In this document: one piece after another, positions 33,684 through 38,290 of the stretch
How positions within the stretch are numbered: the first letter of the stretch is position 1
How the letters are laid out: every line of letters starts with the position of its first letter
Assembly: GCF_900168025.1 (NCBI RefSeq)
Contig: NZ_FUYN01000003.1
Location: 310,001 to 374,000, forward strand
Origin: Acetoanaerobium noterae
GTDB taxonomy: Bacteria > Bacillota > Clostridia > Peptostreptococcales > Filifactoraceae
DNA length: 64,000 nt
Reading direction: 5' to 3'
Notes under the pieces: generated by a model
What the model saw: the letters and a program-made list of their open reading frames with translations, nothing else
Database searches by the model: none
Told to the model about the DNA's origin: nothing
Made by a program: the position numbers and the translations under genes

Positions 33684-34436
33684 TTATTTATTACAAGATA
33701 TAAATACTCTCTGGCACTCATTATTATATCCCGGAGATATATCAAAGTCACTGTATACATTTATATTCTTAAATCCAATATCCTCTAAAAATCTAGTTAG
33801 CTTAAGGGGATCGTGAGCTTTTTGAATATGTGTTTCCTCGAATCTCCTATAGGTGTCTTTTTCTTCATTTTTTATAAAGAAGTTCACATCCATTGTCAGC
33901 TCTTTATGTTCATCATCAAAGTAGTTCTCCCATAGGTATACTAAATCCTCCATGGATTCTCCGTAAGTATTGTTGCCTAGAGTAGTCTTAAGCTTATATG
34001 GACTGCTGATATCAAAAATAAAGCATCCAGTCTCTTTGAGATGAGAATAGATAAAATTAAATATATCTTTTACTTCATCATCCTCTAGGATGTAGTTAAA
34101 AGTGTCATTGACAGCTAGAATACAATCAATTTCATATATTTCAAAATCAAGCTCTCTTATATCCTGCTCCATTAATATAACCTTATCTTCATAGTCCTTA
34201 AGCTTCTCATGGGCAAGCTCAAGCATCTGCTCTGAAATATCTATACCCACAACTTCATATCCCATATCTAAAAGATGTTTAGTAATATTCCCACTTCCAC
34301 ATCCAAGTTCAAGAATATTATTAACAGAACTATTATGGATGCCAATTATATCAACCAAATATTTAGCCCAGCTATTATAATCCACATCTTGCATCAATCT
34401 ATCATAAATCATAGGCAAATGAGTATATTGCTCCAT
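33684..34436 (-). CDS. Class I SAM-dependent methyltransferase
   Basis: This 250-residue methyltransferase carries motif I ILELGCGSGNITKHLL (about 40-55), motif II VVGIDISEQML and motif IV-like DCILAVNDTFNYI. The C-terminal half, with WENYFDDEHKELTMDVNFF, is like the family often found with hslO or ribosome-silencing genes in Clostridia, whose substrate is not established. The substrate cannot be read here; a small molecule or RNA is possible. Confidence 0.8.
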   Translation of the reverse strand: MEQYTHLPMIYDRLMQDVDYNSWAKYLVDIIGIHNSSVNNILELGCGSGNITKHLLDMGYEVVGIDISEQMLELAHEKLKDYEDKVILMEQDIRELDFEIYEIDCILAVNDTFNYILEDDEVKDIFNFIYSHLKETGCFIFDISSPYKLKTTLGNNTYGESMEDLVYLWENYFDDEHKELTMDVNFFIKNEEKDTYRRFEETHIQKAHDPLKLTRFLEDIGFKNINVYSDFDISPGYNNECQRVFISCNK

Positions 34437-34647
34437 AAAGTTTCAACCTGCTTCCTTTATTTTTTCATATCATATTATGATAGTATTTTCTATCCTTCAT
34501 GTCAATTTATACCTAGAAAAATAAACTTTTAATTTGCCAAATTTTTATATTATATAAACTCGTTTACACTATATTAATTAAGAGAGTAGAGATGAATATT
34601 GGGTAAATATATTATCAAGCAATCAAAATTATTGAGGTGAGATTGAT

Positions 34648-35910
34648 ATGAAACCAGTAAAGCTATTAAAAACAGTTTCTAAAAAATATGCTAAAGAGTC
34701 AGCAGATTCTGCATTTGAACTTTCTCATAGGAAACACGTTGCAGATTATTCTAAAAAATTAGCTAAAAGTCGCCATTTAGATTCCAAATTAGCGCTGTTA
34801 ATCGCCTATGGTCATGATCTTGGAAGAACCAAGGAAGGCTTTATAGGTAAAGGTCATGCTCTAGCAGGCTCTAATTTTTGCTCTAATCTGCTTAAAAATG
34901 AAACGCATCTAAGCAATAAGAAAATCAAAAAAGTAGCTAAGGCAATATCTCTTCATTCAAAAAAGAAAATAATCGACGACAGCTACTGCGAGCTCATTAA
35001 AGATGCTGATTCTCTTGCTCATTATAAAGAAGGCTTAATTTCTGAAGATGATTGGGCAGAGCTTTATAGAGTCTATGCCTCAAAAATAGACTCTATAGAT
35101 ATAAAAGTTTCTCCTATTGATAATTGGCATGAAGTTTGGAAAAATAATCTTGAATCCTTATTAGAGGATAGTGATTCCCAAGATATCTATTCGCCTTCAT
35201 GGGTTCACAAAAAAAGAATAGCAATAAGGCAGCTTAAAATCATAAATAAGTATTTTATAAAATTAGATAAAAGAAATAAAGAGTTTTTAAAATCCCTGAA
35301 TAGCTTACTAAACACATATTTTCATAGTCTTGAGAATCCAAGAAAATACTTTGTGCTAAACGAATTTGTTAAGAGCTTAAATTTAGATTTAGAAGAGCTA
35401 CAATTAATGCTAGAAGGTGACCTTGCTGAATCCACTCAGGAAATAGAAATAATACTAAAGGATAATGATGTATATAGCAAATTAGACCATTTAATTGAAA
35501 TTTCTAGTGAGAAACTATTTTTACCTTCTGATAAAATCATAAAGAAATATAAGCTGGATGCTATATGGACTAAGGACTATAAAAATCTCATAGATATTAT
35601 TGCAAATTCAGAAAATGAATCTAACTATGATTTTCACGATGCTAGAATAATAGGCAAAAAATTTAAGTATCTATATGATTTGAATTTGATAGATTTTTCT
35701 TCAAAGCATCTTTACAAATCCATTGCTGATTTCCACAAAGCCAGCGGAGACCTTCATGACATAGATGATTTATATAATTATCTTAATAATTATTTGGATA
35801 GTGAGCTGAATATAGACGAGCTTTTCCTATCTATGAATCATGAAGAAGAGGCTTTATATGAGAAATGCTCTAAAGTAATATTTTTTTATAAGCTTCTTAA
35901 GAGAAATTAA
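34648..35910 (+). CDS. HD-domain phosphohydrolase fused to a CHAD domain
   Basis: The 420-residue protein has two parts. Residues 1-130 form an HD hydrolase domain. H30, H56-D57 (YGHDLGR), H70, H103 and D119 fit the H...HD...H...D metal site. Residues ~183-418 resemble CHAD. The first arm is WVHKKRIAIRQLK (H187, R190, R194) and the second is YDFHDARIIGKKFKYLYDL (H330, R333, K337-K338), followed by SIADFHKASGDLHDIDDL, which matches CHAD's last conserved helix. CHAD domains are known polyphosphate binders with basic inner surfaces. I infer an enzyme or scaffold acting on polyphosphate or on a nucleotide near it. A TGAGGTGAG ribosome-binding site precedes the ATG. It is a single-gene unit. Confidence 0.75.
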   Translation: MKPVKLLKTVSKKYAKESADSAFELSHRKHVADYSKKLAKSRHLDSKLALLIAYGHDLGRTKEGFIGKGHALAGSNFCSNLLKNETHLSNKKIKKVAKAISLHSKKKIIDDSYCELIKDADSLAHYKEGLISEDDWAELYRVYASKIDSIDIKVSPIDNWHEVWKNNLESLLEDSDSQDIYSPSWVHKKRIAIRQLKIINKYFIKLDKRNKEFLKSLNSLLNTYFHSLENPRKYFVLNEFVKSLNLDLEELQLMLEGDLAESTQEIEIILKDNDVYSKLDHLIEISSEKLFLPSDKIIKKYKLDAIWTKDYKNLIDIIANSENESNYDFHDARIIGKKFKYLYDLNLIDFSSKHLYKSIADFHKASGDLHDIDDLYNYLNNYLDSELNIDELFLSMNHEEEALYEKCSKVIFFYKLLKRN

Positions 35911-36097: not shown

Positions 36098-36124
36098 AAA
36101 CCTATCCGATTTTCGGATAGGTTT
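36098..36124. terminator. Bidirectional terminator
   Basis: AAACCTATCCGA and TCGGATAGGTTT form a perfect 12-bp stem with a 3-base loop and T/A runs on both sides. It lies between the convergent HD-CHAD and cupin genes. The 187 bases between the HD-CHAD stop and this hairpin show nothing else. Confidence 0.9.
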
Positions 36125-36130
36125 TTTGCA

Positions 36131-36448
36131 TTACATATTGCTTGGTGCAGGCGATTTTACAACTATTAGCTCTAAAGTATCTTCATCAAGATTTTTTACG
36201 TTCATTTTTATTCCTTTAGGAATTTTTAATAAATTTCCAGAATCATATTTATGAACTCCTTGATTATCTAAATCTATCGATAATTTTCCTCTTATTACTG
36301 ACATATATACATTTGAATTTGAATAATGTTCAGGAAGACCTTCTTCCTTATTAAATACCATGTGAATATAATGTACGTTTTCATCCATAATTAATTTTTC
36401 TACAGCCTTTTCATTACCAGTTGAAAATTTAAATACTTGTTCTACCAT
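36131..36448 (-). CDS. Small single-domain cupin protein
   Basis: This 105-residue protein folds as one cupin barrel. The strands MSVIRGKLSIDLDNQGVHKYDSGNLLKIPKGIKM fit the second cupin motif (G...P.G). The first motif is weak: EHYSNSNVYMSVIRGKL keeps a histidine and the glycine. Metal binding is therefore uncertain. Such small cupins may bind a small ligand or stabilise an enzyme; no specific function can be assigned. TTAGGAGG precedes the ATG. It lies 60 bases after the split permease genes on the same strand. Confidence 0.7.
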   Translation of the reverse strand: MVEQVFKFSTGNEKAVEKLIMDENVHYIHMVFNKEEGLPEHYSNSNVYMSVIRGKLSIDLDNQGVHKYDSGNLLKIPKGIKMNVKNLDEDTLELIVVKSPAPSNM

Positions 36449-36507: not shown

Positions 36508-37026
36508 TTACTCACTAGGAATATCCTCAGTGCTCAAATATCTATTAAATATATATCCCATAATAAAAATTGCAATAACAGTGAAAGCCCACCTTATAGC
36601 CATGAATTTTACTCCTAAAAATTTAGCTTCATTTGCTAGCATTGGTAGTTTTACTACTGCCCAAGAGCTAAGAACAATAACTACATTTCCTAAACTAGCA
36701 CCTTTGTCTAGCAGCATTTTAGAAATCGGAAAAGCTGCATATATCGGACCTGCTGAAATACTTCCTAAAAACAGAGCTAATATATTTCCTTTCAATCCTG
36801 AGTCAAAGCCAAATCCTTTTATTATAGCTTCCTTTGGTATAAGTGCATCCAATACTACAGTAAGAAGATACACCACTGGCATAATCATAATCATTTCTAC
36901 TAAATAATATGTGCTATTACTAATAGCTTTTGTTGCTTTCTCTGGATTTGATATTAATAACACTATATAGACTAAGGCTACAAATATTAGAGTCTTATTT
37001 TTTCGCATAAATTTATTTATCTTCAT
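36508..37026 (-). CDS. Split permease, second half (ArsP/YraQ-like)
   Basis: This 172-residue membrane protein has about five helices. GSISAGPIYAAFPISKMLLDKGAS and VIVLSSWAVVKLPMLANEAKFLG are the features of one half of the large permease family that includes YraQ and the organoarsenical exporter ArsP. In usual members both halves are on one chain. Here the second half is a separate gene overlapping the first by four bases. The two probably form a heterodimer. The substrate is unknown. Confidence 0.75.
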   Translation of the reverse strand: MKINKFMRKNKTLIFVALVYIVLLISNPEKATKAISNSTYYLVEMIMIMPVVYLLTVVLDALIPKEAIIKGFGFDSGLKGNILALFLGSISAGPIYAAFPISKMLLDKGASLGNVVIVLSSWAVVKLPMLANEAKFLGVKFMAIRWAFTVIAIFIMGYIFNRYLSTEDIPSE

Positions 37027-37505
37027 AATATTACCCCCATCACTAAAGCTATAGCTATGGCAAATACAAAGCTAAGAGCATTCCTCAGCAATGCAAATTT
37101 AAAGCCAAACTTTTTCTTCTCAAGAGGAAAAGTAACTACCCCTACCATTGTTAAGGTAGTCAAAAATGCTACAGCTGGTACTATGCTGGCACCTGCATCT
37201 ACTAATGAGCCTACAAGTGGAAAAGCTACAAATGCAGGAATAAGAGTAACGCTTCCTGCTAGTGCAGATATAATTGTTACAAGTGGAGATTTTGATGACC
37301 CAAGAAAAGCTTTTATTGTCTCAGGTGGAATAAATGTCAGTACCAATCCAATTAAAAAGATAATGCCTAATATCTCTCCTATCATATTTTTCATCATACT
37401 TTTAGACTTTTTCATTGCGATAATAGTTTTTTTCTTGTCTTTAGTAATTGATATTCCAAATAATATAATTGATATTGCCCAAAAACTAAGTGTAAATATA
37501 TCCAT
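37023..37505 (-). CDS. Split permease, first half (ArsP/YraQ-like)
   Basis: This 160-residue membrane protein has about four to five helices. The segment SALAGSVTLIPAFVAFPLVGSLVDAGAS mirrors the matching segment of its partner, as expected for the pseudo-symmetric halves of this permease family. The start at 37505 (MDIFTLSF) is chosen because GGGGGAG lies just upstream. Two earlier in-frame ATGs have poor sites. It is divergent from a Crp/Fnr-type regulator with a shared palindrome between them, so its expression is probably induced by that regulator. Confidence 0.75.
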   Translation of the reverse strand: MDIFTLSFWAISIILFGISITKDKKKTIIAMKKSKSMMKNMIGEILGIIFLIGLVLTFIPPETIKAFLGSSKSPLVTIISALAGSVTLIPAFVAFPLVGSLVDAGASIVPAVAFLTTLTMVGVVTFPLEKKKFGFKFALLRNALSFVFAIAIALVMGVIL

Positions 37506-37558
37506 ACTCTCCCCCATTCTTACTTTTAAAACTAATTTACTCAAAGCTATTTTCATTC

Positions 37559-37613: not shown

Positions 37614-37627
37614 ACATGGAGAAAATA

Positions 37628-38290
37628 ATGAAAACAATTATAAAGAAATTAGAGGGGCTTTCACTTATAGATACTGTTTCTGATAAGGATCTAGAATATT
37701 ACTTAAAATCCGGGCAGCTAAAGCTAGTCAAATATAAAAAAAATAGCATAATTCACTTTGATTCTGAAAAGTGCTTAAAGGTTGAAATTCTAGTATCTGG
37801 CAGAGTAGTGGTAAACAGAATAGATGAGGATGGGAATTTACTCAATGTGACTGAGTTTATAAGAGATGATTTAATAGGAGGCAATTTGATTTTTTCTAAA
37901 AATCCTTATTATCCTATGACTGTAGAAACTCATACAGATTCTGAGCTTCTAGAAATAGATAAAAAGCTTTTGTTTATGCTTTTATCTGAAAATGTAAACT
38001 TTCTAAAAATATTCTTAGAGCTTATATCAGACAATGCAATGATGCTTGGTGATAAAATCAAACATTATGTAAGTAAGACTATAAGACAAAGCTTATTAAA
38101 CTATTTTGACTACGAATCTAAAAAGCAAAATACCAATATCATAAAACTTAATATAACTAAAAAAGCTCTCGCTGAGAAAATAGGAGTTAGCCGTACCTCT
38201 ATTTCACGAGAGCTTGCAAAAATGAAAGCTGAAGCTTTAATTGACTACTCTAAAAATCAAATTAAACTTCTTTACCTAGATTCTAAATAA
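37628..38290 (+). CDS. Crp/Fnr-family transcriptional regulator
   Basis: This 220-residue regulator has a cyclic-nucleotide-type beta-roll (about 20-125, with VKYKKNSIIHFDSEKCLKVEILVSGRV), a dimer helix and a C-terminal winged helix with NITKKALAEKIGVSRTSISRELAKM. The effector pocket lacks the Arg-Ser pair of cAMP receptors, and there is no N-terminal cysteine cluster as in Fnr. The signal is therefore unknown. The start at 37628 is favoured by GGAG seven bases upstream. An ATG four codons earlier is possible. It is divergent from the split permease. Its end overlaps the convergent amidohydrolase by eight bases. Confidence 0.88.
   Translation: MKTIIKKLEGLSLIDTVSDKDLEYYLKSGQLKLVKYKKNSIIHFDSEKCLKVEILVSGRVVVNRIDEDGNLLNVTEFIRDDLIGGNLIFSKNPYYPMTVETHTDSELLEIDKKLLFMLLSENVNFLKIFLELISDNAMMLGDKIKHYVSKTIRQSLLNYFDYESKKQNTNIIKLNITKKALAEKIGVSRTSISRELAKMKAEALIDYSKNQIKLLYLDSK

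Follow-up and report, generated by a model that had tools for sequence, protein, structure and literature searches.

CHAD domains are known grippers of inorganic polyphosphate (polyP), and the chemistry attached to them in bacteria has been little explored beyond CYTH enzymes. The CHAD domain of the CYTH enzyme YgiF stimulates its tripolyphosphatase activity (PMC6537752), and CYTH domains have been described in fusion with HD hydrolase, exopolyphosphatase or CHAD domains (PMC8233210); a Methanospirillum metallophosphoesterase carrying a CHAD domain is also on record in the literature. Here, we analyzed a stretch of 64,000 nucleotides from Acetoanaerobium noterae (contig NZ_FUYN01000003.1, positions 310,001 to 374,000; hereafter the window), in which a single open reading frame (ORF) of 420 amino acids with an ATG start (34648-35910, plus strand) joins an HD domain to a CHAD domain, based on Pfam matches and an AlphaFold (AF2) model. 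An earlier interpretation of this DNA made from the letters alone (the sequence-only reading) had considered HD an unfamiliar partner of CHAD. This agrees with the literature covered, in which CYTH-CHAD and CYTH-HD fusions turned up but no HD-CHAD protein was found; most subscription papers and all domain-architecture databases, which may list the architecture, lay outside that search. Taken together, the data presented below suggest that the gene probably encodes a little-known enzyme of polyP metabolism.

The two domains of the fusion protein

The fusion was compared across 12 distinct genomes, including that of the window (G000, G021, G032, G058, Fusibacter (G156 = G059), G177, G192, G168, G146, G060, G061 and G062; locus L018 is G058, L021 is G032, and L019, L020 and L022 are G060, G061 and G062). 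Two further candidates were left out of this set, namely G142, in which only the CHAD part is present, at the start of a contig and with one in-frame stop, and G186 (L087), which encodes an HD protein without a recognisable CHAD domain.

The HD domain spans residues 1-148 (34648-35091, plus strand). Pfam HD (PF01966) matched residues 26-124 of the window protein at 31.8 bits (E 1.9e-7), above the cut-off of 22, and the nearest solved HD structure to the model was 2pq7 (VIA-align Z 15.8, model residues 1-147), followed by 3dto (Z 13.7) and YqeK 2o08 (Z 13.3). By sequence, 2pq7 was recovered at E 2.4e-5 with the single sequence and at 7.5e-14 with a profile, and YqeK 2o08 gave a weak partial profile match (E 0.017). 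The Pfam HD cut-off was reached by 7/12 fusions; L017, L018, L022, L083 and L084 (5/12) showed no match to this model at E ≤ 1. These five match a custom HD profile at 133-151 bits, L017, L018 and L022 being rows of that same profile, and keep every metal ligand.

Dinuclear HD sites are recognisable by the motif H...HD...H...H...D (PMC8177086). The window protein fits this six-residue signature with the first metal ligand H27 (34726-34728), the HD doublet H56-D57 (34813-34818), the two extra ligands of the dinuclear motif, H70 (34855-34857) and H103 (34954-34956), and the last metal ligand D121 (35008-35010), all on the plus strand. Each of the six is invariant in the 44 sequences counted (12 HD-CHAD proteins, two longer type-2 fusions, five Paludibacter proteins and 25 HD-only relatives; L087 was left out). 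The full HD metal site proposed in the sequence-only reading was therefore borne out and is larger than claimed. Judged by motif and fold, the HD half is predicted to hold a two-metal site formed by these residues.

Two alternatives can be weighed at this point. The protein could be a catalytically idle phosin that coats or positions polyP granules, the HD domain being structural or regulatory. An idle site is, however, not expected, because none of the six metal ligands varies in the 12 fusions or in 32 other HD sequences, and we regard this option as improbable. Alternatively, the six-ligand motif is shared by MIOX, PhnZ and TmpB (PMC8177086), and the HD half could accordingly be a di-iron oxygenase. 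The known HD oxygenases use O2 and act on inositol and phosphonates (PMC8177086), whereas the genes found beside the fusion are polyP genes and the host is an anaerobe, judging from its relatives; an oxygenase thus appears highly improbable.

The residue counts across groups further revealed that G67-K68 (34846-34851, plus strand), close to the ligand H70, is a signature of the fusion clade and invariant in it; K68 occurs in 12/12 HD-CHAD proteins, 4/25 HD-only relatives, 0/5 Paludibacter proteins and 0/2 type-2 fusions. The net charge of the HD domain averages +0.9 in the fusion clade (-6 to +12) compared to -5.9 in HD-only relatives (-14 to +5), with overlapping ranges. The window HD domain itself is strongly basic (+10 over residues 1-148, 34648-35091), in contrast to its slightly acidic CHAD domain (-2).

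By structure, the CHAD domain covers residues 155-418 (35110-35901, plus strand). Against Pfam CHAD (PF05235), the window protein scored 19.1 bits (E 0.0014, residues 183-373), missing the cut-off of 25.6. Beyond HD and CHAD, no Pfam domain was found at E ≤ 1, and the protein thus lacks an N-terminal CYTH domain. The sequence-only reading had suggested a search with hidden Markov models as a check and had named a C-terminal part not scoring as CHAD as evidence against itself. On the window scores alone, the HD assignment passed and the CHAD assignment came close to failing; it stands on the relatives, a profile and the structure. All other fusions (11/12) pass the Pfam CHAD cut-off with 28.3-63.5 bits, and CHAD is recovered at E ≤ 0.01 in each of the eight sequences of the full-length alignment A2. 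The profile of alignment A4 (7 full-length and 12 HD-only rows) matches CtCHAD (6qv7) at E 8.6e-11 and RcCHAD (6qv5) at 9.6e-7, the lower matches of this profile calling for caution, with two unrelated helical peptides at 4.6e-6 and 5.7e-6. The AF2 model, computed from 19 rows (mean predicted local distance difference test score (pLDDT) 91.4; predicted template modelling score (pTM) 0.88), shows the two four-helix bundles of the CHAD fold and aligns over 245-264 residues with 6qv5 (Z 20.0), 6rn5 (Z 18.1), the polyP complex 6qva (Z 18.0), 3e0s (Z 17.9) and 6qv7 (Z 17.6). Foldseek ranks the same CHAD chains first, with E values of only 1.7e-3 to 1.3e-2.

Mutation of H253, R256, R260, R296 or R418/Y419 in CtCHAD weakens polyP binding (PMC6537752). 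In the 6qv7 alignment, with CtCHAD numbering counted along the chain at an offset of 204, these contacts map to H187, R190, R194, R232, K340 (a conservative replacement) and Y341 of the window protein. The first three form a basic arm of the pattern H187-x2-R190-x3-R194 (35206-35229), R232 lies at 35341-35343, and K340 and Y341 (R418/Y419 in CtCHAD) belong to a second basic arm, H330-x2-R333-x3-K337-x2-K340-Y341 (35635-35670), all on the plus strand. Identical residues were found in 12/12 HD-CHAD proteins at H187, R190, R194, R232, H330, R333, K337 and Y341, and position 340 is K in 9/12 and I in 3/12. One of the locus-search patterns spanned R333-Y341, and conservation in this segment is built in for the loci it retrieved; L019, L020 and L022, however, lay outside this pattern yet keep R333, K337 and Y341. 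A sub-threshold Pfam score alone would permit a chance match, which is excluded here by fold, relatives and residues. The C-terminal half of the window protein is a real CHAD domain, and the CHAD-like domain with both basic arms described in the sequence-only reading is confirmed, all arm residues except K340 being identical throughout the fusions. By homology to CtCHAD, this half may be expected to bind polyP.

Polyphosphate genes and the distribution of HD-CHAD pairs

In 7/12 fusion genomes, which represent three genera, the fusion gene directly adjoins ppx and ppk1; two gene orders occur. The order ROK kinase-ppx-ppk1-HD-CHAD was found in G058, G177 and G192, the fusion starting 10 bases after ppk1, and the order HD-CHAD-ppx-ppk1-second ppx in G021, G032, G168 and G146, the fusion lying 15 to 338 bases before ppx. 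The labels of these neighbours are phmmer matches; in a check with NCBIfam, 2/2 ppk1 products scored above the TIGR03705 cut-off, and exopolyphosphatase was the best match of each of four ppx-like proteins (106, 292, 155 and 313 bits), one of which exceeded the cut-off of 307. At the level of whole genomes, ppk1 is present in 12/12 fusion genomes compared to 23/59 relatives, four of these 23 being fusion genomes themselves. The ppk1 regions examined in fusion genomes carry one or two PPX-like genes.

In the Fusibacter genome, ppx-ppk1-ppx is located on another contig, and a ROK-family sugar kinase gene directly follows the fusion (L017:7272-8216). In the g39 genomes, such a kinase gene likewise adjoins the HD-CHAD cluster (L010:5495-6451, L083:2251-3207, L084:2506-3462). 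Two copies of this neighbour scored 50.2 and 51.9 bits against the polyP-glucokinase cut-off of 250 and missed the glucokinase cut-off as well. The HD-CHAD loci of G060, G061 and G062 (13, 5.1 and 5.5 kb; those of G061 and G062 are whole contigs) contained no PPX, PPK1 or PPK2 gene detectable by profiles. In G146, a VTC-domain gene (L086:11161-11931, 176.5 bits) lies three genes from the HD-CHAD-ppx-ppk1-ppx cluster; the VTC domain is that of the yeast polyP polymerase Vtc4.

The HD-only relatives provide a control for this association. Multi-sequence profiles (E ≤ 1e-3) detected CHAD, PPX, PPK1 or PPK2 genes in 0/19 HD-only loci, scanned over about 1 to 10 kb per side; L107, which lies on the same contig as L023, and L106, for which no separate HD ORF was listed, were kept outside the 19. 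When the CYTH-CHAD and CHAD-only rows were omitted in building the CHAD profile, it still found all seven loci of these two kinds. A further 12 HD-only loci, with flanks of no more than about 1.4 kb, contained none of the four genes either. Weak matches to ROK kinases were seen in L029 and L030 (49 and 52 bits). The 0/19 count rules out that the whole HD subfamily consists of polyP proteins, and the polyP link therefore tracks the fusion and not the HD subfamily. Some related HD domains carry other partners: L061:1357-2487 has a C-terminal extension that scores as DUF2284 (predicted metal-binding), L066:1336-2514 looks alike by eye, and L055:907-1953 is fused to a peptidase-like CHAP domain (34.5 bits).

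A different arrangement occurs in Paludibacter (Bacteroidota), where a separate CHAD gene directly follows the HD gene and is itself followed by ppk2 in 3/5 loci (L028, L032 and L036; Pfam CHAD 55.4, 55.7 and 59.5 bits); in two of these, L028 and L032, ppx-ppk1 comes next. In L035, the HD gene adjoins ppx-ppk1 without CHAD, and L037, where the contig stops about 440 bases past HD, contains none of CHAD, ppk2, ppx and ppk1. PolyP genes thus stand beside HD in 4/5 Paludibacter loci. In a sample of the order to which Paludibacter belongs, this HD domain was found in 1/149 genomes (the query itself) and CHAD in 24/149.

Near full-length HD-CHAD proteins (covering 386 or more of the 419 model positions) were present in 9/297 sampled genomes of the window's order, along with many weaker HD-only and CHAD-only matches. 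In the window's family, 1/11 genomes encodes the fusion, and in the phylum sample it was found only in the window's genome (1/398), with eight others matching the HD part only (E ≤ 1e-20). When named genomes were scanned, the fusion turned up in Fusibacter bizertensis (L017) and in five Clostridia assembled from metagenomes (L018-L022).

The 12 fusions and L087 form one group in the HD tree (support 100/99), and in the CHAD tree the 12 fusions group together with weak support (81/75). L087 (L087:5856-6899 in G186) falls within the HD-CHAD clade, and its C-terminal half, which gives no CHAD match, is perhaps a CHAD domain that decayed. We also identified a second, longer HD-CHAD type, L088:6591-8168 (525 amino acids; HD 51 bits, CHAD 82 bits) and L089:5785-7293 (502 amino acids; HD 41 bits, CHAD 72 bits), whose genes lie about 3.5 kb from a ppk2-like gene. 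This type falls outside the main fusion clade in both trees; one clade of type 2 and the main fusions was, however, not rejected by the approximately unbiased test (p-AU 0.092 for HD, 0.324 for CHAD), leaving type 2 as at most a candidate for an independent fusion. Clades joining the fusions, type 2 and the Paludibacter HD domains (p 0.013) or the fusions and the Paludibacter CHAD domains (p 0.032) were rejected, the groups tested having been chosen after the first tree. These rejections make it likely that HD and CHAD were paired on at least two separate occasions.

Candidate substrates of the proposed HD-CHAD enzyme

We propose that HD-CHAD is a polyP-docked dinuclear HD phosphohydrolase with polyP or short-chain polyP as its most likely substrate, a tentative first choice to which we give slightly less than an even chance. 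Considering fold and mapped contact residues, the polyP chain would lie along the basic cleft of the CHAD half, which would grip the substrate much as in the CYTH enzyme YgiF, and the tethered HD site, if occupied by two metals and catalytic, would cleave a phosphoanhydride bond. Three points favor polyP as substrate: the polyP genes nearby, the basic signature adjoining the metal site and the YgiF precedent.

A serious competitor, which we hold to be possible at clearly below even chances, is a nucleotide hydrolase on polyP granules. In that case, CHAD would be only an anchor or sensor, and the HD domain would cleave diadenosine polyphosphates (ApnA), guanosine penta- or tetraphosphate ((p)ppGpp) or nucleoside triphosphates, which would tie nucleotide turnover to the polyP pool. 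YqeK, to which the HD half aligns structurally and weakly by profile, hydrolyses diadenosine tetraphosphate (Ap4A) and is a dinuclear HD phosphatase that shares the six-residue motif (PMC8177086). In Streptomyces, the ppk-pptA(CHAD) operon ends in a gene for a Nudix hydrolase similar to enzymes cleaving diadenosine hexaphosphate (Ap6A) (PMC8003754). This Nudix gene adjoining a CHAD gene favors a nucleotide, as do the substrates of the HD phosphatases tabulated in a review, which are nucleotides or nucleotide analogues (PMC8177086). On the other hand, 2pq7 is closer than YqeK by structure and by profile, no YqeK model was among the six NCBIfam matches of the window protein, and CHAD fused to CYTH accompanies activity on inorganic tripolyphosphate (PMC6537752). 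Our ranking of polyP ahead of a nucleotide is a guess with some support. The sequence-only reading had offered both, an enzyme acting on polyP or on a granule-bound nucleotide; its link to polyP is well supported by fold, mapped contacts and the neighbourhood of the relatives.

Several observations weigh against polyP hydrolysis by the window protein. The HD phosphatases in the table of a review act on nucleotides or nucleotide analogues and none of those tabulated acts on polyP (PMC8177086). An arginine three residues before the first histidine is typical of HD phosphohydrolases (PMC8177086), and this position is E24 in 12/12 fusions. With regard to gene content, the one or two PPX-like genes already present would make an additional polyP hydrolase partly redundant. 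No linkage to ppx-ppk1 was found in the DNA examined for 5/12 fusion genomes, the window and four others; the ppk1 gene of the window's genome is on the same contig, approximately 290 kb away and thus without a link to HD-CHAD, preceded by one ppx and with a second, divergent ppx beyond. Finally, in addition to its sub-threshold Pfam score, the window CHAD domain is the most diverged of the 12 (longest end branch in the CHAD tree, 2.19), its net charge is -2 over residues 183-380 (35194-35787), and the part of the protein after the HD domain is the most acidic, with -11 compared to -1 to +16 in the other 11 fusions.

These last features would fit a window copy in which CHAD has drifted, binds polyP poorly and leaves the protein to work mainly as a soluble HD hydrolase. 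It is the only one of the 12 under the Pfam CHAD cut-off, combines the longest end branch with the most acidic C-terminal half, is unlinked to polyP genes and lacks a full-length counterpart in the genome of the congener G001. Nevertheless, every mapped polyP contact position is retained, for which reason polyP binding is expected, perhaps in weaker form, and the confident AF2 model retains the CHAD fold; drift to this extent appears unlikely.

Beyond the single protein, HD-CHAD may represent an unrecognised class of polyphosphatases, in which a two-metal HD site acting on inorganic polyP was joined to CHAD by fusion in Clostridia and, separately, by adjacent genes in Paludibacter. We put this forward as a speculative extension that we would sooner doubt than expect to hold. 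If true, HD would join PPX, CYTH and other known folds as a polyP-cleaving catalyst. The HD-CHAD genes clustered with ppx-ppk1 offer a testable candidate for a new polyP hydrolase or granule-linked nucleotide hydrolase in Clostridia.

Gene surroundings and comparison with known systems

In the window, the HD-CHAD gene is isolated, both flanking genes being on the minus strand: a methyltransferase gene (33684-34436) on one side and a convergent cupin-like gene (36131-36448; Pfam score under the cut-off) on the other. GAGGTGAG (34634-34641, plus strand), six bases 5' of the ATG, is a likely ribosome-binding site judging from the sequence. Between the fusion and the cupin-like gene, a repeat scan detected a terminator-like inverted repeat (36098-36124, plus strand), which is weak evidence, as one repeat is counted on both strands and two were found compared to 0.9 (standard deviation 1.2) expected. 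Further along, two overlapping adjacent half-size ArsP_1 permease genes (36508-37026 and 37023-37556; 41.7 and 44.5 bits) are followed by a divergent gene for a Crp-type regulator (37616-38290). None of the six NCBIfam matches of the window protein provided a specific name.

CHAD also occurs with another partner in the window's family, where two genomes (G007 and G003) encode a histidine-phosphatase domain (PF00300, 24-25 bits) fused to CHAD (36-44 bits; L078:895-2217 and L079:1351-2745). Together with CYTH and HD, this suggests CHAD as a module bearing several phosphohydrolases.

Compared to known systems, HD-CHAD resembles the Escherichia coli inorganic tripolyphosphatase YgiF (CYTH-CHAD) in having an N-terminal phosphohydrolase and a C-terminal CHAD domain, which in YgiF grips polyP (PMC6537752); it differs in that the enzyme part is an HD domain with a predicted two-metal site and predicted activity instead of a CYTH tunnel. 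With the stand-alone CHAD phosins (PptA of Streptomyces, CtCHAD and RcCHAD), it shares the CHAD fold (Z 17.6-20.0) and the polyP contact residues, and the Streptomyces CHAD gene likewise lies beside ppk (PMC8003754), but the phosins have no enzyme domain. YqeK, the symmetrical Ap4A hydrolase, is dinuclear and has the six-ligand motif and the HD fold but lacks CHAD and matches the window HD domain only weakly by sequence. The closest solved HD domain by both sequence and fold, 2pq7, is a predicted HD hydrolase from an uncultured Thermotogales bacterium; it is without CHAD, and its record title names no substrate. The HD-only relatives from Bacillota, Actinomycetota, Bacteroidota and others belong to the same HD subfamily, many of them sharing the signature YxELIKDAD, whereas they lack CHAD, mostly lack K68 and, outside Paludibacter, have no polyP genes nearby in the 19 loci scanned.
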